A stretch of 12,926 bases of DNA, taken from the NCBI GenBank assembly GCA_002841685.1, contig PHAM01000052.1, positions 1 through 12,926 of the forward strand, given 5' to 3'. Below, piece after piece: positions 1 to 12,838 of the stretch (within the stretch, counting starts at the first letter, position 1; each line of letters opens with the position of its first letter). The position numbers were made by a program, and so were the translations under genes. Under the pieces are notes generated by a model. That model was not told the DNA's origin and made no database searches. It saw only the letters and a program-made list of their open reading frames with translations. Source of the stretch: Elusimicrobia bacterium HGW-Elusimicrobia-2. Lineage in GTDB: Bacteria > CG03.

Positions 1-426
1 GGGATTCTGGGCGAATGCGTTGAGATGTTCAAGCAGGAATACAAACTCATTGATTTTGAACTGGCTGTGAAAAAAAATCTCCGGGCTCAGGCCGACGCGT
101 CGGAAATAAGGCAGGTCTTCGCCAACATTATCAAAAATGCCTGCGAGGCTATAACGCCTCCCGGAGAAATCAAAATATCGGCTTCTGCCGATAAGAATTC
201 CATCAGGATCAGATTCGCCGATAGCGGATGCGGAATCCCGGCCGATAAGCTGAAAGAGATATGGGAACCTTTTATTTCCACAAAAAGTTCCGGTATGGGA
301 TTCGGTCTGGCGACGGTTAAAAAGATAGTGGAAGAAAGGCATAAAGGGACGATCTCGCTCACAAGCAGGGAGGGGGAGGGCACGAAAATGACGGTGTACC
401 TGCCTTGTGAGCAGCAACAGTTATGA
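1..426 (+). CDS. Sensor histidine kinase, C-terminal ATPase fragment (partial)
   Basis: This is the 3' end of a gene that begins before the window; the frame is open from base 1, so the ATG at 25 is an internal methionine and not a start. The visible 141 residues form a GHKL-type HATPase_c domain. Seen directly are an N box (RQVFANIIKNACEAI), a G1 box (DSGCGIP), an F box (WEPFISTKSS) and a G2 box (GMGFGLATV), in the order typical of NtrB-like histidine kinases. The domain binds ATP and phosphorylates a histidine in the missing dimerisation domain; the sensor part is also outside the window. The gene overlaps the following receiver gene by ATGA (423-426), so the two are very probably cognate partners in a two-component system. 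The input signal cannot be told from here. Confidence 0.93.
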   Translation, partial: GILGECVEMFKQEYKLIDFELAVKKNLRAQADASEIRQVFANIIKNACEAITPPGEIKISASADKNSIRIRFADSGCGIPADKLKEIWEPFISTKSSGMGFGLATVKKIVEERHKGTISLTSREGEGTKMTVYLPCEQQQL

Positions 427-785
427 AAAAAAGAATTCTTGTGGTCGATGACGATTTCAGCGTCAGAGAGACACTCGCCGATATCCTGCGCAGCCGCGAT
501 TATGAGGTCGTGGAAGCCTCATCCGGCGCCGAGGCCGTGGTGAATGCCGCGGCCGGAAAATATGATTGCGTTATAATAGACCTGCGGTTGCCCGATACCA
601 CGGGGCTTGAAGTCATTGAAAAAATATCCGGCGATGTGCCGAAAAACAAAATAATAGTCATCACCGGTTACGCGTCTTCCGATATGCTGGCGAAAACTCT
701 TGAGGAGGCCGAGTTTTTTCTTTTGCTCAAGCCGGTTGACACGGAGCAGATGCTTCAAATGGTTACAAAAATTATCGCGCAATGA
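423..785 (+). CDS. Stand-alone response regulator receiver domain (CheY-like)
   Basis: A 120-residue single receiver domain with no DNA-binding or enzymatic output domain. Key positions are visible: the acidic pocket D9-D10-D11, the phosphoacceptor D53 in the motif IIDLRLPD, the switch residue T81 in VITGYAS, and K103 followed by P104. It should be phosphorylated by the kinase encoded just upstream, with which it shares an ATGA overlap. Its stop overlaps the next start in the same way (782-785). Because it lacks an output domain, it probably acts by binding a partner protein. The translationally coupled MotB/OmpA-like protein downstream is one candidate, but that is inference. There is no clear Shine-Dalgarno sequence, so translation probably relies on coupling. 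Confidence 0.94.
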   Translation: MKKRILVVDDDFSVRETLADILRSRDYEVVEASSGAEAVVNAAAGKYDCVIIDLRLPDTTGLEVIEKISGDVPKNKIIVITGYASSDMLAKTLEEAEFFLLLKPVDTEQMLQMVTKIIAQ

Positions 786-1579
786 ACGACGAATCCGCCT
801 GGATTGTTCCTTATGGAAATCTCATGACCATCCTTATGATATTTTTTCTGCTGCTCTACGCTTACACATATCTGACGGGCCAGGTGCGCTATGAAAAAGT
901 CGTCGCCTCACTCACCGAGGGTTTCGGCCGTTCCGCTCCGATAAAGGAGGTGGAGCTGGCGGAATATCTTGAGGATTATTTTTCCACAAGAGAAGAATAT
1001 CTCAAAAACATGAACATGGCTTCGGACAGGATAACGCTGATGTTCAATCTTCCCGTTTTTTTTGAGAAAGACAGCATAGAGATCAAAGAATCGGCTTTAG
1101 CCGTATTAGATGACATATTCAGGATAATGTATGATCTGCCCAATGAGATAGTGATCTCCGGTTTCGCCGCCCCGGATTCCCGCAGGGATAAGATGCCGGT
1201 CGCGGCCGGGCGGGCGCTCAACATCGGACAGTTTTTTATAAAAAAAGGCATTGACCCCCAGCGGCTTATACTGAAGGGGTGGGGCGCGGCCCTGGGAGGC
1301 GCTGCTCCTTCCGGGTCGGAAGCGCTGGAAGACAGGGTCGAGATCAGCATAATGAGGGAGGTGTCGCCGCCAGATATACCCGTCAGCGAGAAGCTGATAA
1401 AGATGAAAGAGAATTATTTTTACGGTGATTATTATTATAAAAATGGCGACTTGAAAAAAGCCGAAATTTTCTTCGGCTATATCCTGGATCTTGACCCGAG
1501 CCATTGGAAGGCCCGCCGCATGATAAAAAGGATACAGAGAGAAAGGGCACTGTCTAAAAGCCCCGTAACAGCCGGATAA
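782..1579 (+). CDS. MotB/OmpA-like envelope protein with C-terminal TPR-like tail
   Basis: A 265-residue protein. A short N-terminus leads into one transmembrane helix (about residues 7-30) that aligns with the MotB plug/TM motif W-x3-Y-x-D-x-M-T, here W7...Y11-G12-N13-L14-M15-T16. The Asp that binds the proton in MotB is therefore Asn13. Residues 83-192 form an OmpA C-terminal-like peptidoglycan-binding domain (starting ITLMFNLPVFF, ending DRVEISI). It keeps the Arg of the AxRAL helix (R144), but the usual GHTD/GYTD turn is GFAAPD. Residues 208-245 look like one TPR-type helical pair (NGDLKKAEIFFGYILDLDP). It is probably anchored in the inner membrane with the OmpA-like part in the periplasm. 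No MotA/ExbB-like partner lies in the window. It is translationally coupled to the receiver gene, and its last 26 bases overlap the convergent glycosyltransferase gene. A true stator role is doubtful given Asn13. Confidence 0.85.
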   Translation: MNDESAWIVPYGNLMTILMIFFLLLYAYTYLTGQVRYEKVVASLTEGFGRSAPIKEVELAEYLEDYFSTREEYLKNMNMASDRITLMFNLPVFFEKDSIEIKESALAVLDDIFRIMYDLPNEIVISGFAAPDSRRDKMPVAAGRALNIGQFFIKKGIDPQRLILKGWGAALGGAAPSGSEALEDRVEISIMREVSPPDIPVSEKLIKMKENYFYGDYYYKNGDLKKAEIFFGYILDLDPSHWKARRMIKRIQRERALSKSPVTAG

Positions 1580-2359: not shown

Positions 2360-2992
2360 TCAGGTTTTGGCGAAGGTGAGGGCGATAACGCGTTTTGCGC
2401 CGCCCTTAAGCAGCGCGGCCGCGCATTCGTTGACGGTGGCGCCTGTTGTGGCGACATCATCTATGAGGATAATATTCGCCGGAAGTTTGCCCCGCACGGC
2501 AAAAGCGCCTTTTACATTTTTTATTCTCTCGCCGGGGTGCAGGCCCCGCTGGGAAGGGGTGTTGCGAACGCGCCGCAGCTTTGAAGCGGAAAAGGGCAGC
2601 TTCAGGATTTTACAAACGCTTTTCGCTATGAGTGATGCCTGGTTGTAGCCCCTTTCGTTTTTTCTGGTTCTGTGCAGGGGGACGGGTATGATGATATCGG
2701 GCAGGAAGCTTCCACCGTGTTTTATGAGGCTGTCCGTCATCACGCGCGCGGCTGTCCGGGCGCACGAGCGGCCGTTGCGGAATTTCATTTCCTTTATCAG
2801 CTTTTTCGCCGCGCCCCTGTAGAGCGCGGAGCTTATCAGCGCGCAGTTGCCGTATTCCACGGGAGGCAGCTCGTGGGAGCTTATTTCGTCCAGGCATCGG
2901 AGGCAAACGGGTTCGCGCGCGCTGAGGGGAAGGAATTCCCCGCATCCCGAGCATCGCGGCGGGAAAATAAAATTTATCAGTCGCAGGAACAT
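2360..2992 (-). CDS. comF: ComF-family phosphoribosyltransferase-like protein
   Basis: A 210-residue ComF-type protein, close to the usual family length. The N-terminus carries a zinc-ribbon-like set of cysteines, C14-x2-C17 and C30-x2-C33. The rest is a type I phosphoribosyltransferase fold: PVPLH (103-107), RGYNQA (114-119), the TPSQRGL...R..N segment (145-159) and the PRPP loop IILIDDVATTGAT (174-186). ComF proteins are needed for inward transport of single-stranded DNA in several naturally transformable bacteria, but they are also found in species with no known competence. The start codon shares one base with the stop of the large barrel gene upstream (TGATG, 2990-2994), so its expression is coupled to that gene. 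No terminator is obvious after its stop. Confidence 0.93.
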   Translation of the reverse strand: MFLRLINFIFPPRCSGCGEFLPLSAREPVCLRCLDEISSHELPPVEYGNCALISSALYRGAAKKLIKEMKFRNGRSCARTAARVMTDSLIKHGGSFLPDIIIPVPLHRTRKNERGYNQASLIAKSVCKILKLPFSASKLRRVRNTPSQRGLHPGERIKNVKGAFAVRGKLPANIILIDDVATTGATVNECAAALLKGGAKRVIALTFAKT

Positions 2993-5900
2993 CAGAAAAT
3001 TATTTCAAGTTTTGTGCTGATCTGAACAGCCATATAATTGTTCTCGCGGCGTTTTGTGTAATCGGCATAGGAGAGCCCGCCCCCCAGACTCCAGCGGAAA
3101 TTGGAAGACATGTCGAAGTCCATGGAAAAATTACTCGCGTAGAGCTGATAATTTGTGCTTGTGACATTCAGGCTGCTGCGTTTCATCGTGCCGGAAAAAT
3201 CAATATTGTATCTGACATTCTGGTCTATCTCAATTTTTTTTGAACTGAAAGGCATCTGAAGGCTCTTTCTCATTTTCATGGTGTCCGAATGGAGTTTCGC
3301 GTTCACGGCGTGCGAACGGTCGTCCTTGGACATAACTCCTCCGGCGGAATGGCCGACATTATTGGCTCCGGTGTAAGTGAAGTTGGAATGCCATTTTTGC
3401 CACAGGTCAAAATTAACGCTGGCGTTCCATGATTTGTCCGTGCTTTGAGCGGACACGGCGTTCTGCTGGATGTCCTTGTTTTCCGTCTCACTTATTTTGA
3501 ATCCGGTGCCGATGGTGAATTTCTGCCATTTAAAATTGAGCGTCAGCCCCTGTCTGGCTGTCGCGGCGAGAGAAAGATTTTTCTGCTCGGTTTCGGAATT
3601 GTATATTTCTATGAGTGTGTTCATCGCGGAAAAATTTTTCCCGAAGATCGGTATTTTTTCAAGTGAGGATATCCTTATGCGCGCGTCGGGAAATGTGAGA
3701 GTGAAAGATTCGGACGGAGTGCCGGTCAGCTCCGTCCGCGCGAGATTGGATGTGTAATTCAGCTGTATGTCGGTGGTGCCGATCGGTGTCCAGGCGCCGG
3801 CAAGATCCAGGAAAGCAAAAGGTTTGTATGATGTGGACAGCGTATCGGACCGGGAAGTGGAGTAGGAATAAAGTTCGGCCTCGGGATTGTTCCGGTCAAA
3901 GGTCAGTCCGGTGTAAACGAAGCCGCTGTCGCGGAGAAAAAGTTTGTTCAGCGTGTTGAAATCCTTGTCCACATTTTTGTAAACGTCCGCGTCCGTTACC
4001 TTCAGATTGTAGTTGAAAGTGAGGCTGTTGGTGGGGCCGAAATTTATCAGGCTCCCCATGCTGAGAGGTATGCCGAATCCGGCGGAACTTGTTCTGTTGA
4101 TGTCTTTCAGCGTGAGGCCGATGCTTTTCCATGCGTCGGTGCTCGCGGGCATGGCATAGTTTTCGGTAACGGCCGCACTGTAATTGAAGCTGGTGTTGAG
4201 CCATTTGAAGGGCCTGAGGTTTCCGCTCACGCCGGCGGCGACATTCTGGCTGTTGAGAAGGCGCGCCATGCTGTCTTCTCCGATCTTTTTCCCGGAAGTG
4301 TTTCTCGTCAGTTTGTAGTTGCCGTTAAAATTGAGCAGTTTCAGGGGGTAGAACTGCGCGTCGCCGTAAAAGGTTTCGGTCTCGTTTTCCGTGTCCACAT
4401 TGCTGATCTGTCTGTTGTATTCCACAGCCGACACCGAACGGGAATAGTCAGCCGTGATGTTTTTCGGGAGTATGATGAGATTGGGCAGGGTGTAGGTCAT
4501 ACGCCCGTGAACGGTTTCGGCGGTGTCCGTTTTCCCGGCCAAAGTGTTTGATGTGACGGAGTGGCTGTAATCGCCTGAAAACTGAGGCAGGAGCTTTATG
4601 TTCAGGGCGCCTTTCACGGAATAAAGATTTTTTTCGATCCGGCCTTCATCCCATGTGCTGAGATACTGCGCCATGGGCGCGTCGGAGAGGTTGACTTTCT
4701 CCCGCGGAGTGGTGACGACGGATCTTTCAATATGTCCGGAAAGGGGCATCCACCTGATGCGGTTGAGGCTGAGGTCGCCGGTTTTGAACTCCTGGTCGCT
4801 GGAACTTTCAAAGGTCATGCTCTTGAAATTGGAATCTATTTCCTTGTGTGTGCCTCCGATGGTAAACCAGCCGGGGAGCTCCACGGAACCCTGCGCTTTT
4901 TTCGCGCTGCCTGTTTCTTTCCTGACGCCGTCCACATAAAAATCATTGATCCACAATTCATAATTCCCGGTCGAACCGTCGTCGCTCCTGACGCCGGCGA
5001 ATATCCTGGTGATGTTGTTTATGTTAACGCTGCCTGTCCGGGTCTGGAAGCCGTCGGGGATGGAATCGTAGTCCGCGTCCAGGAGGGACAGGCTGAAATG
5101 CTTCCATCCCGTAAAATCATCGGTAAAGGAATGCTCATAATAATTTGTTATGTCATTGCCTATCCTGATAAAAGCGCTGTTCCCGGAATTTTCCCCGTAA
5201 ACGAAAAAGTTCAGGTTTTTGTATATGGACAGGTCCATGCGGGAATAAGACGCGTAGGTATAAGCAGTGGCGTTGGGCGAAAGGCTGTAATTTATCCGCA
5301 GGGCCTGTTCCCGTATCTCAACATCGCTGTTGTCATAAAGATCGTTGTAATAAGGGGTGTAAAGGAGCGATTTTCCGGCGTATTCAGGATCTGTTTCGTT
5401 GTTTATCGCGGATACGTCAAAATCATCCCCGTCGGCGTCTATGTCTATTTCTATGCCGTTGCGAATAAGCGTGGGCTTTTGCCATCTGTTGCCCACGAGG
5501 CCGACCCCTGCTATTTTTATCTCACCCGCTGAGGCGCCTCCCGTCGCCATGCCGAGCGTCAAGGATATCTGTTTCACCGACCGCCACGCGTCTTTGTTGG
5601 TCGCGGTAATGGGCAGTTCGTATCTGAATTTCTGCCATCCCGACCACGAGACTGTCACGGCGGTTGAATAAATGATGTTTTCATCTGTTGACAGCTCGCC
5701 GTCGCCGTCAAGGTCCTCCGTGTTAAGCCGGCCGTTGTCTTTTCCCCAGACAAACCATGTGTTGGCGCTTCCGGGGAGATTGAATTTAACTCCGGTGTCC
5801 TCGCCGTCGTTCAAAAAGTGATCGCTGTTCGGGTCTTCGTTGTCAAGGACGCCGTCGGCATCGGCGTCCTCGTTAAAACGGCCGAGTTCTATTGTGACGG

Positions 5901-8133
5901 TTTCGTTTTTCCCGCTGCCCCATATATATCCCTCTATATATTTTTTCAGGCTGTAATCCGCTCCCTCGCTTGATATGGCATACACGAGCGCTGTCTGGCC
6001 CCCGGCGGGCATGAGCGAATAATTCAGGGCGAGAGCGCTGGTTTCATCTTCGCTGCTGTAATAAACGGGATTGAGTTCCCGCATGTTTATACCGTCGATC
6101 TCACTCCACACGAGCATTCCGCGTTTGTAGGGATCCTGTATGGCGGCGGGTTTCCATTGTTCCTCATAGGTGGAAACGGTATCTTCCTGTTTAATGTTCT
6201 CCATGTTCTCAACGATAGCTTTTCCGGCTTTGTTCGGGTCGTTTTCACTCCTTGCCGCCTCCCCTGAAATATTCACCCTGAAAGGAAAATGTCTTTTCGG
6301 GTTCAATGACAGCTTAGTGTTCACGTCAAACAGGAGCGTGGAGGGAGATGTCTGGTAGATACTGGGGATATCTCCCGCCGACGGGGCGAAATTATACAGT
6401 ATTGTGCCCCCGGCGAAAAAATTAGCGCTGGGTTTGTATTCGATCCTTGTCCCCGCGAGGGTTTGTTCCTGTCCGCCGACAAAGGGATAATATTCATAGG
6501 ATGCTTCAATAGACGAATCGTCTTTTATATCTTCTGTGTTGAGGAAGGTGATCCATCCCGAGTAGTAATCCAGCATATAGTCCCTGTCTTTGTCCAGAAT
6601 TTTCCCGTCCATGGAGATCCTTTCGGAATCTTTGACGATACTGGGCCGCAGAAGGTAGGTGTTGAGCTTCACGCGGTATTCCGCGTAAACGGCGAAATGA
6701 AGCCTCTCGCCGTGACGGGAAGGGTCGTAGATGTCGCTGTAGTCGTAGCCCAGTTGCGCGCCGATGTCCTCAAAAGGCCTCTCCCGTGAGAATTCTATTA
6801 TCCCGAGGTCATAATCCACGGTGAAAGACGCGGATGAAAAATCCACATAACGGACACCGCCCGCGGCGGTCTCGCTGTTGGAATTATCCAGTATTTTTAT
6901 GACGAATTTTTCGCCGAGCGAGTCGCGTATGATGTTGGTCGCTCCGAGGGAATAGCGGTTCTTTATCTCATAATGATCTTCAGCGGGAGAGGAGCGGCCG
7001 GCACGCGCGGCGTCATCTTTTATAACGACGTTGTAGAGGCCGCCGTTGGGGTCCGAAAACTTGTTGCCGTCGGTGTCAGTCCAGTCGCAGGCGATAACGG
7101 CGTCTTTTGATACGGATTTATAGAATGTGACAATACCGCGTGAATGGTCCACAATGTAATCTATGCCGGGTTTGAGGAGGTCAAAATTCCCCGTGAAGGT
7201 CTGCGTGGACCACATGACCGTCATGGGCTGTGTTATCCCGACGAGGTTGTTTTCTCCTATCCTGTCATCCAGCCAGATCTTTACGGAGCCTCTGGTCAGC
7301 GGCAGAGAGGCCGTTGAATTATAGATCTCGTAGTATTTTCGGCTCATATAAGAGGCGTCATTGATTATGGGTTTTCTGAATTCCGTGGATCCGGTGAAGC
7401 GTTTTATCTCGTTCAGCCCTTTCGTCTGGGATCCGACAAAATAAAGCGATAAACTTTTGTATTTCGCCGAACCCATAAAACCGAACAGGTTTTTGTCCAG
7501 GCCGGCTTTTCCCGAATAGCCGACGAATTCCGTCCCTGGCAGTGACAGGGTGATGTCTCCGAATTCCACCTTCTGGACGATCTCATTGGGGTCGCCGGTA
7601 TATTTGATCTGGATGTTACGTCTGTTGAGGTCGCCCTGGTTGTCGTCGTAGTTTATATCCACGTTTATTTTTCGTCCGACTTTTCCTTTGATCTTGATCT
7701 GCAGCTGCTGGTCCATGCTCATGTCAAAGCCGTCAGTTCCGCCGGCGCTGACGGTTCTTTTGGATGCGTCCTTTTCCTTATAAAACGCTTTTCCGAATTT
7801 CATTGAGATGGATTTTCGGCCGGCCACGTCGAGTTCTCCGCCGCTTTCCGCCGGCAGGTCTATATCAAATGACGCTTTGGGGAGGATGGCCCCTGTGGGT
7901 TCTGCCGCCTTGCTTTTTCCCGGAGCCGTTTCTTCAGCTATTTTTTCAAAGCTTTTTTCCTCAAAGTCGAAGACCTCTTTCTGATGCCTTATTTCCTGCC
8001 AGAGATCATGATCAAAAGGCAGTTCCTCGGCGCGGGCGGTATTAATGGGGAGTGTCAGGCACAGCGCTGCTGCGCAGACGAGCGGCGAAAATTTCAAAAC
8101 ATGCCTGTTCATAGAATTACATTTTTGCTCCAT
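2992..8133 (-). CDS. SprA/Sov-like giant outer-membrane beta-barrel protein
   Basis: A 1713-residue exported protein. An N-terminal signal peptide is visible (basic n-region around R10-K14, hydrophobic core about 15-30, likely cleavage after ARA at 35). Residues 145-203 hold KIKGKVGRKINVDINYDD..., ...NIQIKYTGDPNEIVQKVEFGD... and LSLPGTEFVGY, which match my memory of the SprA N-terminal domain, the type IX secretion translocon of Bacteroidetes. The middle has two acidic Ca-binding-like segments (about 752-767 and 805-817, EDLDGDGELSTDE) and two jelly-roll-like segments (about 850-910 and 990-1085). From about 1150 on, alternating polar/aromatic strands suggest a barrel, and the protein ends in Phe (AVQISTKLEIIF), like an outer-membrane beta-signal. 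SprA/Sov are about 2400-2500 residues, so this is a shorter relative. ATG 8133 is favoured by the promoter; an internal ATG at 8112 is the alternative start. The gene is followed by comF. Confidence 0.82.
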   Translation of the reverse strand: MEQKCNSMNRHVLKFSPLVCAAALCLTLPINTARAEELPFDHDLWQEIRHQKEVFDFEEKSFEKIAEETAPGKSKAAEPTGAILPKASFDIDLPAESGGELDVAGRKSISMKFGKAFYKEKDASKRTVSAGGTDGFDMSMDQQLQIKIKGKVGRKINVDINYDDNQGDLNRRNIQIKYTGDPNEIVQKVEFGDITLSLPGTEFVGYSGKAGLDKNLFGFMGSAKYKSLSLYFVGSQTKGLNEIKRFTGSTEFRKPIINDASYMSRKYYEIYNSTASLPLTRGSVKIWLDDRIGENNLVGITQPMTVMWSTQTFTGNFDLLKPGIDYIVDHSRGIVTFYKSVSKDAVIACDWTDTDGNKFSDPNGGLYNVVIKDDAARAGRSSPAEDHYEIKNRYSLGATNIIRDSLGEKFVIKILDNSNSETAAGGVRYVDFSSASFTVDYDLGIIEFSRERPFEDIGAQLGYDYSDIYDPSRHGERLHFAVYAEYRVKLNTYLLRPSIVKDSERISMDGKILDKDRDYMLDYYSGWITFLNTEDIKDDSSIEASYEYYPFVGGQEQTLAGTRIEYKPSANFFAGGTILYNFAPSAGDIPSIYQTSPSTLLFDVNTKLSLNPKRHFPFRVNISGEAARSENDPNKAGKAIVENMENIKQEDTVSTYEEQWKPAAIQDPYKRGMLVWSEIDGINMRELNPVYYSSEDETSALALNYSLMPAGGQTALVYAISSEGADYSLKKYIEGYIWGSGKNETVTIELGRFNEDADADGVLDNEDPNSDHFLNDGEDTGVKFNLPGSANTWFVWGKDNGRLNTEDLDGDGELSTDENIIYSTAVTVSWSGWQKFRYELPITATNKDAWRSVKQISLTLGMATGGASAGEIKIAGVGLVGNRWQKPTLIRNGIEIDIDADGDDFDVSAINNETDPEYAGKSLLYTPYYNDLYDNSDVEIREQALRINYSLSPNATAYTYASYSRMDLSIYKNLNFFVYGENSGNSAFIRIGNDITNYYEHSFTDDFTGWKHFSLSLLDADYDSIPDGFQTRTGSVNINNITRIFAGVRSDDGSTGNYELWINDFYVDGVRKETGSAKKAQGSVELPGWFTIGGTHKEIDSNFKSMTFESSSDQEFKTGDLSLNRIRWMPLSGHIERSVVTTPREKVNLSDAPMAQYLSTWDEGRIEKNLYSVKGALNIKLLPQFSGDYSHSVTSNTLAGKTDTAETVHGRMTYTLPNLIILPKNITADYSRSVSAVEYNRQISNVDTENETETFYGDAQFYPLKLLNFNGNYKLTRNTSGKKIGEDSMARLLNSQNVAAGVSGNLRPFKWLNTSFNYSAAVTENYAMPASTDAWKSIGLTLKDINRTSSAGFGIPLSMGSLINFGPTNSLTFNYNLKVTDADVYKNVDKDFNTLNKLFLRDSGFVYTGLTFDRNNPEAELYSYSTSRSDTLSTSYKPFAFLDLAGAWTPIGTTDIQLNYTSNLARTELTGTPSESFTLTFPDARIRISSLEKIPIFGKNFSAMNTLIEIYNSETEQKNLSLAATARQGLTLNFKWQKFTIGTGFKISETENKDIQQNAVSAQSTDKSWNASVNFDLWQKWHSNFTYTGANNVGHSAGGVMSKDDRSHAVNAKLHSDTMKMRKSLQMPFSSKKIEIDQNVRYNIDFSGTMKRSSLNVTSTNYQLYASNFSMDFDMSSNFRWSLGGGLSYADYTKRRENNYMAVQISTKLEIIF

Positions 8134-8291: not shown

Positions 8292-8501
8292 GTGAAAGCT
8301 ATTAAGACAAGCGAAAGCGCGGGATTTTTGTCCGCGGCGTGCGGACCCGGCGGTTGGCTGGTTTCGGAAGACGGCCAGGGCGGGAGCGAATATATATTGA
8401 TGGTTTTCTGTTTATCGGTGGTTATTTTTGGTTTGAAAATTTTTAATCTGGTTTTGAACAAGGCCTATTTGGATGCCGTGAATAACATAAGCAAATGGTG
8501 A
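8292..8501 (+). CDS. Flp-like pilin 1 (first gene of pilin operon)
   Basis: A 69-residue prepilin-like protein starting with GTG. It has a 28-residue leader ending in SEDG28, then the mature N-terminus QGGSEY with Glu at +5 and Tyr at +6, the signature recognised by TadV/FppA-type prepilin peptidases, and then a hydrophobic helix (ILMVFCLSVVIFGLKIF). The mature part would be 41 residues, the shortest of the six. It has GG at +2/+3 where the others have GM or AM, so it may be a minor or tip subunit; that is inference. The GTG start is chosen because the promoter ends just before it and no ATG precedes the leader. The gene overlaps the next one by 7 bases. Confidence 0.82.
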   Translation: MKAIKTSESAGFLSAACGPGGWLVSEDGQGGSEYILMVFCLSVVIFGLKIFNLVLNKAYLDAVNNISKW

Positions 8502-8683
8502 GATCCGGCGGAAAATCTTTTCTCGGGCGCGAAGACGGCCAGGCGATGACCGAATACATCCTGATGATGTTTCTCATCGTTCTTTCCGCCGCGCAGGCGC
8601 TGAAGGCATTTGGTTTGTGTTTGGATATCGCGCTTATACAGTCGGCGAGAAAGCTCGGCGGCTTCGGAGGCACCATAAAATGA
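8495..8683 (+). CDS. Flp-like pilin 2
   Basis: A 62-residue prepilin-like protein. Its leader of 15 residues ends in REDG15, followed by QAMTEY (Glu +5, Tyr +6) and the helix ILMMFLIVLSAAQALKAF. The predicted mature subunit is 47 residues, and its C-terminal tail has several glycines (LGGFGGTIK). The start ATG at 8495 lies inside the end of the previous gene; a GTG at 8498, overlapping that gene's stop as GTGA, is an alternative that removes only one residue. The stop overlaps the next gene's ATG (ATGA, 8680-8683), so translation is coupled on both sides. The shared EDGQ segment relates it most closely to pilin 1. Confidence 0.85.
   Translation: MVRSGGKSFLGREDGQAMTEYILMMFLIVLSAAQALKAFGLCLDIALIQSARKLGGFGGTIK
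8666..8670 (+). promoter_or_regulatory. Shine-Dalgarno site setting the start of pilin 3
   Basis: GGAGG lies nine bases before the ATG at 8680. It favours that ATG over an upstream in-frame ATG at 8617, which would put 21 extra arginine-rich residues before the leader and run deep inside pilin 2. Confidence 0.65.
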
Positions 8684-8862
8684 GGAAACCGGATTTTGTT
8701 TGGAATTTTAAAAGCGCCAGAGGGGCGGGTATGACGGAATATATTCTTATCGTGTTTTTAATAGCGCTTCTCGCTTATGTTGCCGTGCAGGAATATGGCA
8801 AAGTGGTATCCGGCAGATTTATAGGCGCCGGGAATAAAGTGGAAGCCGCGTGGGGCGATTGA
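8680..8862 (+). CDS. Flp-like pilin 3
   Basis: A 60-residue prepilin-like protein. Its 15-residue leader ends in KSARG15, followed by AGMTEY (Glu +5, Tyr +6) and the helix ILIVFLIALLAYVAV. Alone among the nine products of this cluster it has Ala rather than Gln at +1. The mature subunit would be 45 residues and its sequence is close to pilins 4 and 5, indicating tandem duplication. The ATG at 8680 overlaps the stop of pilin 2 (ATGA) and has a GGAGG nine bases upstream. A 70-base gap follows, holding a separate promoter for pilin 4. Confidence 0.88.
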   Translation: MRKPDFVWNFKSARGAGMTEYILIVFLIALLAYVAVQEYGKVVSGRFIGAGNKVEAAWGD

Positions 8863-8876
8863 AAGATTGCAAAATG

Positions 8877-8905
8877 TTGAAAGGGTATCCGGCATTCAAT
8901 AAAAA
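8877..8905 (+). promoter_or_regulatory. Internal promoter before pilin 4
   Basis: TTGAAA (8877-8882) and TAAAAA (8900-8905) are separated by 17 bases in the only sizeable gap of the pilin operon. A transcript from here would have a 5' leader of about 20 bases containing the AGGAGG at 8922-8927. The -10 is imperfect, so this is a moderate call. Confidence 0.5.
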
Positions 8906-8921
8906 TAATGCGCGGATATAC

Positions 8922-8927
8922 AGGAGG
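8922..8927 (+). promoter_or_regulatory. Strong Shine-Dalgarno site of pilin 4
   Basis: AGGAGG lies five bases before the ATG at 8933. It is the best ribosome-binding site of the six pilin genes and suggests that pilin 4 is the most highly translated subunit. Confidence 0.8.
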
Positions 8928-8932
8928 TTGTT

Positions 8933-9094
8933 ATGAATTTTTTGAGAGATGAAAGAGGGCAGGGCATGACAGAGTACATTCTTTTGGTTTTCCTTATCGC
9001 CCTTCTGGCCTACGCGATGGTTCAGGTATTCGGCAACACCGTAAAGAATGCGTTTAATACAGGCGCATCAAAACTTAGAAACGCCGCGAGATAA
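8933..9094 (+). CDS. Flp-like pilin 4, probable major pilin
   Basis: A 53-residue prepilin-like protein with the shortest leader of the set (MNFLRDERG, 9 residues), then QGMTEY (Glu +5, Tyr +6), the helix ILLVFLIALLAYAMV and a short amphipathic tail ending NAAR. The mature subunit would be 44 residues. It is the most canonical Flp-type pilin here. It also has its own likely promoter (8877-8905) and a full AGGAGG Shine-Dalgarno sequence, which no other gene in the operon has. I therefore infer that it is the major filament subunit. It is easily missed in automated annotation because of its length. Confidence 0.9.
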   Translation: MNFLRDERGQGMTEYILLVFLIALLAYAMVQVFGNTVKNAFNTGASKLRNAAR

Positions 9095-9105
9095 AAGAGC
9101 AATCA

Positions 9106-9333
9106 ATGTCTGTCCTTTGCGAAGCTGAAGGGCGGAGTGTATCGGGCGGGTGTTCCGGGGGCCGTTTTTTGCGCGCATTGGGAAAAGATGAGTGCGGTCA
9201 GGGCATGACCGAATATATCCTGCTCATTTTTCTTGTCGCGCTCGCCTGTATATTCGGCATTAGAATGTACGGCGGCAAAATAAAAAAGGGTTACACCAAA
9301 GGCGCCGAGACTTTGGGGAACATAGCCAGGTAA
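9106..9333 (+). CDS. Flp-like pilin 5
   Basis: A 75-residue prepilin-like protein. The mature part QGMTEY... (Glu +5, Tyr +6) with helix ILLIFLVALACIFGI is 44 residues and closely resembles pilin 4, including a tail ending NIAR. The leader from the ATG at 9106 is unusually long (31 residues) and rich in Gly and Cys. A TTG at 9169, with a G-rich stretch just upstream, would give an 11-residue start-to-Gly leader more like that of pilin 4. I keep the ATG but regard the start as open. It lies 11 bases after pilin 4 and 11 bases before pilin 6. Confidence 0.82.
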   Translation: MSVLCEAEGRSVSGGCSGGRFLRALGKDECGQGMTEYILLIFLVALACIFGIRMYGGKIKKGYTKGAETLGNIAR

Positions 9334-9344
9334 GGCGGCGCAGT

Positions 9345-9539
9345 ATGGAAAAGCCGCTCACCGCTTGTTCCGGACGCCTCCGGTTTTGTTCCGGCCAGGC
9401 GATGGCTGAATATGTTATCGCGCTTTTTCTCTGCGCGATGTTTGCCGTCGGCACTTTCAAAACTTATCAACACGCTATGCGTGTACATTACAACCGCGTC
9501 GCCAAAGCCCGCACGGGTTCCACAGGTATGAGACCGTGA
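9345..9539 (+). CDS. Flp-like pilin 6
   Basis: A 64-residue prepilin-like protein. The leader ends in FCSG17, followed by QAMAEY (Glu +5, Tyr +6) and a helix (VIALFLCAMFAVGTF) that differs from those of pilins 3-5. The mature subunit is 47 residues with a basic tail (HYNRVAKAR). Having Ala at +4 (QAMAE) makes its N-terminus resemble the last TadE-like protein of the operon (QAMAEM), so it may be intermediate between the pilins and the pseudopilins. The stop overlaps the GTG start of the next gene (GTGA, 9536-9539). Confidence 0.83.
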   Translation: MEKPLTACSGRLRFCSGQAMAEYVIALFLCAMFAVGTFKTYQHAMRVHYNRVAKARTGSTGMRP

Positions 9540-10845: not shown

Positions 10846-11312
10846 TGAAAAAGAATTTGAAATCACCTCGTTCGGGCCAGGCGATGGCGGAGATGGTGAT
10901 ATGCCTTATTGTCCTGCCTCTTTTCATAATGGCCATCGTCCGTTTCGGCCAGACTCTGATAATCCAGCAGCGGCTTCTTATGGCGGCAAAACACGGCGTG
11001 ATACTCAGGTCAACCAATCTGGTGGCTGACACTTATGTAACGAGTGAGGTGAGACGGTTCCTCGCTGAAGGCACGCCAAAACTGGAAAGCGGAAAGATAA
11101 CAATATCTCTGGCGAAAACGAGCTATTTCGGAAACCCCATATCCCATGTCACCGTGGGTTATAGGATAAGGGTCCCGGTATTTGGCGGAAGCAGTGGGGG
11201 AAATTTTTTTCAGCCGTTTCGAAGCGAGGAAATAACATTAAGAGAAGAAGCATACTGCGCTGATTTCAGGCGTTTACCGGGAAAGCTTTATTCTCTGCCG
11301 CCTGATATTTAA
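10845..11312 (+). CDS. TadE-like pseudopilin, second copy
   Basis: A 155-residue protein. Leader MKKNLKSPRSG11 is followed by QAMAEMVICLIVLPLFIMAIVRFGQ, with Glu at +5 and a proline in the helix as in TadE. The next segment (IIQQRLLMAAKHGVIL) matches the post-helix pattern of the family. The C-terminal domain has short beta-type segments. It is translationally coupled to the TadG-like gene. Its stop codon TAA (11310-11312) overlaps the TAA of the opposite-strand gene through the palindrome TTAA, so there is no intergenic space and no intrinsic terminator at the end of this operon. Confidence 0.85.
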   Translation: MKKNLKSPRSGQAMAEMVICLIVLPLFIMAIVRFGQTLIIQQRLLMAAKHGVILRSTNLVADTYVTSEVRRFLAEGTPKLESGKITISLAKTSYFGNPISHVTVGYRIRVPVFGGSSGGNFFQPFRSEEITLREEAYCADFRRLPGKLYSLPPDI

Positions 11313-12838
11313 GAACGCTGTTTTTTTCTTTTATAGATCACAGAAATTTCGTCTGACCGCGTCAATTCCCAGTCCTCTGAATTGCTGAGGTAAAACGATA
11401 AAGGGGCATTTTTTTCCCAGAGAATAAGATCAAAATTGTTTTTTTCAAGAAACCCGCCGGGATCTTTCATAAGTTCGGTTGACTGAAAAAAATCCTCAAG
11501 AAATTCTCCCGGATAAAAATCGGCTCTCCCGTCTATGAAAACTTTGACGCCGCTGTATATCAGATAGCCGCCCCAATGATAGGGGTGCAAAAGCCGGACC
11601 GGATTAAGCGCCGCTATTTCTTTCGCGGAGCTTCGCGGCAGTTGGTTATCCTGCAGATAACCGTCTCGGAAATTTTTTCTGAAGGTCATAATAATTATCA
11701 GCAGGGCTGCGGCGATAAGTAAATAATTCAGGGCGCATAGCGCTTTTGACTTTATGACCGCGGGAGAAGTTTTATCTGAAACCCGCTTCAAAAAAGGCGC
11801 TAAACAAAGCGCTATGTGTTTCGCGGCGGCGGGGGATGATATAATCATAAAAAGCGGCAGGTTTCTTACCGAATAAAGAGCGCCCGCCAAAAAAAATAAA
11901 TAAAGAAAAATATCCCGCGCGGCGGGTTTTTCAGGAGAGAAAATGAACGAAGAGAGTGAGATGAAAATATAAATGAGCAGGCCTTTGCCGTAAACCGAAT
12001 GGAAATCGGGGCTCATCCATTCCATTATGTAATTCATGTGAAGGTGCGTGGAGCCGGCAAGATATTTAAAAGGATGAATAACGGCGCGAAAGCCGTAGGG
12101 GTTGATAAGAAGCGCGAAGGCCGTTATGAGCGTTATGATTCCCAGTGTGGATAATTTCCGCTTGAGCAGTGTTTCTTCCACGGCGAAAACAGCCAGTACG
12201 GATAGCCCTATAACAAACATTCCGTGCAGATTAATCCATAAAACAAAAAGAAAAGGGATAACGCGGAGAAGGCGTGATTGTTTTTCTTTTTCATATAAAA
12301 TCATGAGCAGCGCGGCAAGCAGAAAAAAAGAAAAGAGCTGCGGGCGCACGGAATAAGTGATGGAAGAGAGCGCCCCTCCGAGGGCGGTGACAAAAACGGA
12401 AGTTTCAAAAGCTGGAAGTCCGCCGCTGAAAGTCTGCCGTGGCGGATGGCGGGAAGAGCTTGTTTTGAGGCAGACAAGAAATACCATGAAAAAAGCCCCT
12501 GTTATAACGGCCGCTTTAAGCAGTATGAGTCCCGCGAAACCGGTGTGTTCGAAAACGGTATAAAAAACCAGCTGCGACAGCCATTCGTGGTCAAGCCATT
12601 TTTGCCCGGCATGCGTCCATGAAAAGCCGTCCTGCGACGGCGCGCCGGAAGAGGCTATGATTTCTCCTGTTTTGAGGTGCCAGAAAAAATCAGGGTCGGA
12701 TATTTTCGTGAGATTGAGAATAAAAACAATACTCAGAAGGAACACGATTAAAACGGTTCTGATATTAAATTTTCCCTGCATGCTTTTATGATAATTTAAT
12801 TCAAGTTTCTTTGCAATATGGTTTGTGTCATTTGTCAT
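11309..12838 (-). CDS. Polytopic membrane protein, GT-C glycosyltransferase-like (function unknown)
   Basis: A 509-residue protein with a first transmembrane helix at about 27-45, roughly ten further hydrophobic segments, and a soluble C-terminal region. Visible motifs are SDPDFFWHLKTGE (47-59), D70-G-F-S-W-T, W81-LDHEWL (to 87), RPQLFSF (165-171), W201-INLHG (to 206), NPYG (246-249) and, in the C-terminal part, HWGGYLIYSG...FIDGRADFY. I recall this pattern from a widespread family of uncharacterised bacterial membrane proteins; the acidic DPD motif in the first outer loop and the overall layout resemble GT-C enzymes that use polyprenyl-linked sugars. That role is inferred. The start at 12838 has no Shine-Dalgarno sequence. 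It is convergent with the pilin operon, with overlapping stops. A role in glycosylating surface proteins is only a guess. Confidence 0.75.
   Translation of the reverse strand: MTNDTNHIAKKLELNYHKSMQGKFNIRTVLIVFLLSIVFILNLTKISDPDFFWHLKTGEIIASSGAPSQDGFSWTHAGQKWLDHEWLSQLVFYTVFEHTGFAGLILLKAAVITGAFFMVFLVCLKTSSSRHPPRQTFSGGLPAFETSVFVTALGGALSSITYSVRPQLFSFFLLAALLMILYEKEKQSRLLRVIPFLFVLWINLHGMFVIGLSVLAVFAVEETLLKRKLSTLGIITLITAFALLINPYGFRAVIHPFKYLAGSTHLHMNYIMEWMSPDFHSVYGKGLLIYIFISLSSFIFSPEKPAARDIFLYLFFLAGALYSVRNLPLFMIISSPAAAKHIALCLAPFLKRVSDKTSPAVIKSKALCALNYLLIAAALLIIIMTFRKNFRDGYLQDNQLPRSSAKEIAALNPVRLLHPYHWGGYLIYSGVKVFIDGRADFYPGEFLEDFFQSTELMKDPGGFLEKNNFDLILWEKNAPLSFYLSNSEDWELTRSDEISVIYKRKKQRS

Follow-up and report, generated by a model that had tools for sequence, protein, structure and literature searches.

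The question raised by this locus is whether its giant open reading frame (ORF) encodes a real translocon of the SprA/Sov kind, and what such a channel could serve in its host. The analysed DNA, hereafter the window, is a single complete contig, 12,926 nt (12.9 kb) long, from the 1.78-Mb, 96% complete genome of Elusimicrobia bacterium HGW-Elusimicrobia-2. Its closest named relative is 'Elusimicrobia bacterium CG03_land_8_20_14_0_80_50_18' (PEUP01000043.1, 82% identity; Elusimicrobiota at NCBI), and GTDB names the phylum around it 'CG03'; 16 genomes made up the phylum set used here. Type IX secretion genes have been described as absent outside the Bacteroidota/FCB phyla (PMC11285876; PMC4793230), and the presence in Poribacteria of sorting domains lacking a known Por apparatus was left unexplained (PMC3909097).

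The window encodes a short homologue of SprA

The ORF at 2992-8133 on the (-) strand is intact: it starts with ATG, contains no internal stop, encodes 1713 residues with a signal-peptide-like N-terminus (MNRHVLKFSPLVCAAALCLTLPINTARAEE) and ends in KLEIIF, with Phe as the terminal residue. The features of the gene, its product and the adjoining comF are as follows.

2360..2992, (-): comF (TIGR00201, 115 bits), overlapping the sprA stop by 1 nt; a role in secretion is not known
2992..8133, (-): short sprA, for a putative SprA-type outer-membrane translocon of 1713 aa (TIGR04189, PDB profile match, hhalign, Foldseek of the model halves)
7339..7839, (-): N-terminal conserved SprA block, residues 99-265 (KVGRKINVDINYDD ... 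GDPNEIVQKVEFGDITLSLPGTEFVGY), the best TIGR04189 stretch (profile positions 95-251)
4900..6237, (-): predicted jelly-roll (CBM11-like fold) region, discontinuous, residues about 633-1078, from VIA-align to CBM11 6r31; within the SprA-homologous region and containing the acidic loops
2995..4962, (-): predicted series of long antiparallel strands at the C-terminus (barrel part), residues about 1058-1713, from DSSP of the model and the SprA alignment

The SprA profile TIGR04189 matched the product in four stretches with an E value of 8.5e-44 and 149 bits, and profile positions 1143-1335 fell at 5104-5637, inside the jelly-roll region. Because 149 bits lies below the curated equivalog cut-off of 200 bits, which was reached by none of the 16 phylum genomes, the protein (hereafter the short SprA) is, as judged from sequence, an SprA homologue outside the TIGR04189 equivalog membership. 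The Pfam scan returned a weak CBM_11 match alone and no SprA_N match at E<=1, and single-sequence phmmer against the PDB found no match. Thus, of the two profiles by which the first-pass annotation had proposed to verify its SprA/Sov reading, TIGR04189 gave a highly significant, if sub-threshold, match and Pfam SprA_N gave none. With a profile built from 13 orthologs, the PDB search retrieved the Flavobacterium johnsoniae SprA structure 6h3i (E 4.9e-23), aligned in four stretches of the same order, and hhalign of the ortholog profile with 17 long SprAs gave E 1.6e-132 over 1492 columns; these two comparisons establish collinear, near-full-length homology with SprA.

The short SprA has 1713 residues vs 2403 for 6h3i, so that the shortfall of about 700 residues claimed at first reading is real, and it is conserved, as complete orthologs across the phylum measure 1646-1729 aa. 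Because the N-terminal block, the jelly roll and the C-terminal strands are all retained, the ~690 missing residues must have been trimmed at many places rather than lost as one domain. The acidic loops DADADGVLDNEDPNSD and DLDGDGELSTDENI are present and have similar counterparts in the long-SprA consensus; together with the C-terminal barrel part ending in Phe, they bear out the remaining sequence hallmarks noted initially.

A short module, SERxxLDGxxLxRDxDYxIDYxSGxxTFL, lies at residues 481-548 (window about 6490-6693, (-) strand). It also occurs in other proteins of 380-3000 residues from genomes without a clear SprA (e.g. G115, G253, G381 and G363), and it weakly matches a phage tail tube model.

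Both halves of the short SprA are predicted to adopt the SprA fold

The short SprA was modelled by AlphaFold2 as two overlapping halves, residues 25-1190 and 545-1713, with mean pLDDT values of 76.5 and 82.7, respectively. Using Foldseek, the top four matches of each half were SprA entries, with best E values of 1.2e-48 for the first and 2.3e-42 for the second half, and the next-best non-SprA matches of both stood near 1e-6. Structural alignment by VIA-align placed 680 residues of the first half onto SprA 130-1667 (Z 20.1, 8.5 A) and 1010 residues of the second half onto SprA 746-2401 (Z 17.1, 7.3 A); the alignment to CBM11 6r31 covered 154 residues at 2.8 A (Z 15.0). DSSP assignment on the model of residues 545-1713 showed long antiparallel strands from about residue 1058 to the C-terminus. 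In the models, then, the SprA fold is found in both halves, no fold contradicting a large barrel was predicted, and the short SprA is a predicted SprA-type barrel protein as seen from half-models.

Compared with SprA/Sov (F. johnsoniae 6h3i and 8gl6; TIGR04189), the short SprA is collinear over nearly the whole chain, has the same predicted fold in both halves and shares the acidic loops, the jelly-roll region and the terminal Phe, but is about 690 residues smaller, trimmed in many places, below the equivalog cut-off and found without GldL/GldM. The initial assignment of the ORF as an SprA/Sov-like giant barrel is accordingly upheld by TIGR04189, the PDB profile, hhalign and both model halves, and its product is well supported as a real SprA-type translocon.

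Short SprAs occur in several bacterial lineages

An sprA ortholog was found in 15 of the 16 phylum genomes, at one locus each, and the sixteenth genome is 63% complete. A contig scan with one protein had retrieved two close relatives only. TIGR04189 matched in 159 of 386 genomes sampled over the bacterial domain, and a search with the ortholog profile turned up full-length relatives, about 1650-1770 residues long, in several further lineages. In a FastTree phylogeny of 53 sequences, a branch with support 100 separated 20 long SprAs from the short and middle-length SprAs, including that of the window; the long SprAs of the tree were picked by high score, so this long/short split partly reflects sampling.

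Most of the CTD genes sampled lie directly upstream of a PorV-family carrier gene

C-terminal sorting domains (CTDs) above the TIGR04183 cut-off were found in 16/16 phylum genomes, with 4-33 in each and 11 in the host genome; individual calls may be wrong, as TIGR04183 overlaps the FlgD Ig-like fold. The CTDs sit at the extreme C-terminus of the cargo proteins, which in the host carry fn3, Ig-like, beta-helix and MBL-like regions, and the CTDs of the phylum match the type A model best. PorV was detected in 12/16 phylum genomes with the Pfam model and in 16/16 with NF033709, and the host genome encodes at least three PorV/PorQ-family carriers (NF033709 179, 164 and 121 bits; cut-off 90). The type IX features found in the host are thus CTD cargo and PorV-family carriers. 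The statement that no other type IX gene is present holds for the window, and fails for the genome; the window is misleading in this respect because carriers and CTD cargo are dispersed through the genome. The genome-wide search for partners correspondingly succeeded for CTD proteins and PorV carriers and failed for GldL and GldM (TIGR03513, TIGR03517).

We then considered 52 CTD genes of the phylum chosen by CTD score and downstream room, several of which are orthologs from related genomes and thus represent fewer independent cases. A same-strand gene lay directly downstream in 48/52, and this gene belonged to the PorV/PorQ family in 38/48 (38/52 of all CTD genes) and weakly matched PorP/SprF in 3/48. 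The junction was a 4-nt overlap in 29 cases and fell within -60 to +20 nt in 43. Some carriers bear extra TPR, CsgG or OmpA domains. One fused carrier of 793 residues in the host genome combines PorV, FlgO, CsgG and OmpA (L130, 1825-4206, (+)). In G014, a MotA/MotB-like pair, named by sequence reading, is convergent with a CTD-carrier pair (L144, 6597-8332, (-)).

The idea that this cargo-carrier pairing is special to the phylum was rejected, since CTD genes also lie upstream of PorV-family genes in other lineages, namely in 6/8 short-SprA and 10/11 long-SprA cases having an upstream ORF. The difference between short- and long-SprA genomes is the carrier-to-cargo ratio, not the pairing: in crude first-look counts, the ratio of candidates was 1.22 in the phylum, 0.92 in other short-SprA genomes and 0.24 in long-SprA genomes.

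The arrangement resembles that of type B cargo and its SprF/PorP carrier (F. johnsoniae SprB-SprF; PMC12618676) in having the cargo gene followed directly by the carrier gene, an order that implies stoichiometric pairs, and differs from it in that the CTDs of the phylum are type A-like and the carriers are of the PorV/PorQ family, not PorP/SprF. Like PorV, the general type A carrier, these proteins belong to the PorV/PorQ family; unlike PorV, there are many per genome instead of one.

SprA co-occurs with CTDs and carriers

The joint distribution of the components was assessed in 370 genomes outside the phylum, scoring SprA at E<=1e-9 and requiring at least 3 CTDs. SprA and CTDs were both found in 118 genomes, SprA only in 7, CTDs only in 10 and neither in 235 (odds ratio 396); SprA and strong PorV-family matches were both found in 120, SprA only in 5, PorV only in 13 and neither in 232 (odds ratio 428). 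The p values of these associations are inflated by shared ancestry, and the pattern covers many families. This co-occurrence constitutes the main evidence that the short SprA barrel would act in CTD export. Along with the homology and predicted fold, it supports the suggestion of an outer-membrane secretion or surface-display channel made at first reading.

Motor and sortase components

GldL (TIGR03513) and GldM (TIGR03517), for which the models were trained on Bacteroidota, were not found in the whole phylum, nor in 45 other SprA-positive genomes outside it that were tested for both. Matches were obtained only in G218 and G348, Bacteroidota-like positive controls that carry the two highest-scoring SprAs. 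A C25 peptidase occurred once each in G000, G003, G004, G005 and G007 (all of family f1) and was not found in the 11 other phylum genomes or in most other short-SprA genomes. These f1 proteins resemble the PorU sortase, a C25 peptidase with a CTD, in that the copy in L159 carries a CTD. They differ in that C25 is absent from the other phylum families and in that the PorU model gave the L159 copy 56 bits vs a cut-off of 420.

Gene neighbourhood of sprA

The comF gene stands beside sprA in every phylum locus that was read past the sprA end, and in other lineages too. Beyond the genus, the neighbours of sprA in the phylum are comF and, in families f3-f6, lptF/lptG-like genes on the other side, followed by LolC/E- and LolD-like genes, most of these names coming from sequence reading. 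In other lineages, too, genes resembling lptF adjoin sprA, one of them confirmed with TIGR04407 at 212 bits (cut-off 230). Loci with sprA beside lptF/lptG-like genes and, for some of the loci, Lol-like transporter genes come from several lineages and are L040, L041, L043, L048, L049, L097, L098 and L105. This suggests that sprA lies in an old outer-membrane-biogenesis neighbourhood.

In the window itself, a tandem array of six small ORFs carrying prepilin motifs of the Flp type (TEYIL or AEYVI) occupies 8292-9539 (+), and three TadE/TadG-like genes follow to 11312. At 11309-12838 (-), a 509-residue multi-pass membrane protein, whose place next to the Tad genes is conserved in the genus, gave no convincing Pfam or NCBIfam match. 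One overlapping run at 1-1579 (+) encodes a histidine kinase fragment, a lone receiver protein and a MotB-plug/OmpA/TPR protein, and adjoins sprA within the genus only. The Rfam scan of the window found no family. A functional link between the Tad pilin operon and sprA, raised by the first-pass annotation, was discarded, as Tad genes flank sprA at the genus level only (L035, L037).

Proposed mechanism and alternatives

On the evidence of homology, predicted fold and co-occurrence, the short SprA probably serves a reduced type IX-like secretion system as its outer-membrane translocon. For F. johnsoniae it is known that the CTD of the cargo is bound both in the SprA cavity and by the carrier, which sits at the lateral opening, and that pulling the cargo-carrier pair off SprA requires energy (PMC10994853). 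Type A cargo there has one PorV in common, and a dedicated carrier, encoded just downstream and produced in stoichiometric amounts, is common for type B cargo (PMC12618676). On the F. johnsoniae model, cargo of the phylum would be moved across the inner membrane by Sec; the cargo CTD would be bound inside the SprA barrel and then taken over by a carrier at the lateral opening, and the pair would exit sideways, leaving the cargo outward-facing. The carrier would probably be made one-to-one with its cargo and be kept as a surface anchor, in place of one recycled PorV. We infer the one-to-one production from the cargo genes being mostly followed directly by a carrier gene, often with a stop/start overlap, and the type B gene order together with the carrier-to-cargo ratio suggests that carriers are for the most part not reused and retain their cargo. 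The TPR, CsgG or OmpA domains of some carriers might tether the pair within the periplasm.

A further-reaching proposal would be a type IX system that lacks a motor (no GldKLMN), is widespread outside the Bacteroidota group and exports each cargo with a translationally coupled carrier as its permanent anchor, so that fresh carrier synthesis, not a motor, clears the SprA channel; we regard this as unlikely. Somewhat more plausible, while still short of an even chance, is a complete motor-driven type IX system in which GldK/L/M/N, SprE and other periplasmic parts have diverged beyond the reach of Bacteroidota-trained models. Three genomes with SprAs over 1100 bits (G243, G103 and G371) likewise gave no GldL/GldM match, a result compatible both with models of limited reach and with a true absence; against divergence stands the failure to detect GldL/GldM in the 45 SprA-positive genomes and the whole phylum, though most of these genomes did yield SprA, PorV and CTDs. 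The channel-carrier mechanism would be the same under a diverged motor, and only the reduced, motor-poor part of the claim would fall.

Two alternatives would instead place the barrel outside protein secretion by CTDs. Recruitment to lipopolysaccharide or general outer-membrane assembly, in an LptD-like role, would account for the lptF/lptG and Lol neighbours, since lptF/lptG adjoin sprA in f3-f6 and lptF does so in other lineages, and LptD does appear among the weak Foldseek matches of the C-terminal half. We consider it very improbable, given that SprA structures outscore LptD by about 35 orders of magnitude and that the presence of sprA shows a nearly one-to-one correspondence with that of CTDs and PorV carriers. 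Still harder to credit is a surface channel serving the neighbouring Tad pilus: the divergent arrangement is seen in the window and two same-genus genomes, yet no Tad genes lie beside sprA in six loci of other families (L039, L040, L041, L043, L048 and L049), and a Tad system ordinarily has a secretin of its own.

With the short SprA as the probable translocon of a reduced type IX-like system, the lack of a detected motor raises the question of the power source for cargo release, for which a motor is thought to be needed (PMC10994853). A short SprA scoring under the usual cut-off is also a testable kind of answer to the orphan CTDs of Poribacteria (PMC3909097). Earlier notice of a short SprA elsewhere is possible, as the literature covered lacks preprints and most subscription journals. 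Collectively, type IX secretion, so far reported only for Bacteroidota and their relatives, appears to have a wider distribution and a simpler make-up than those accounts hold, and the short form may display its minimal core of channel and carrier.
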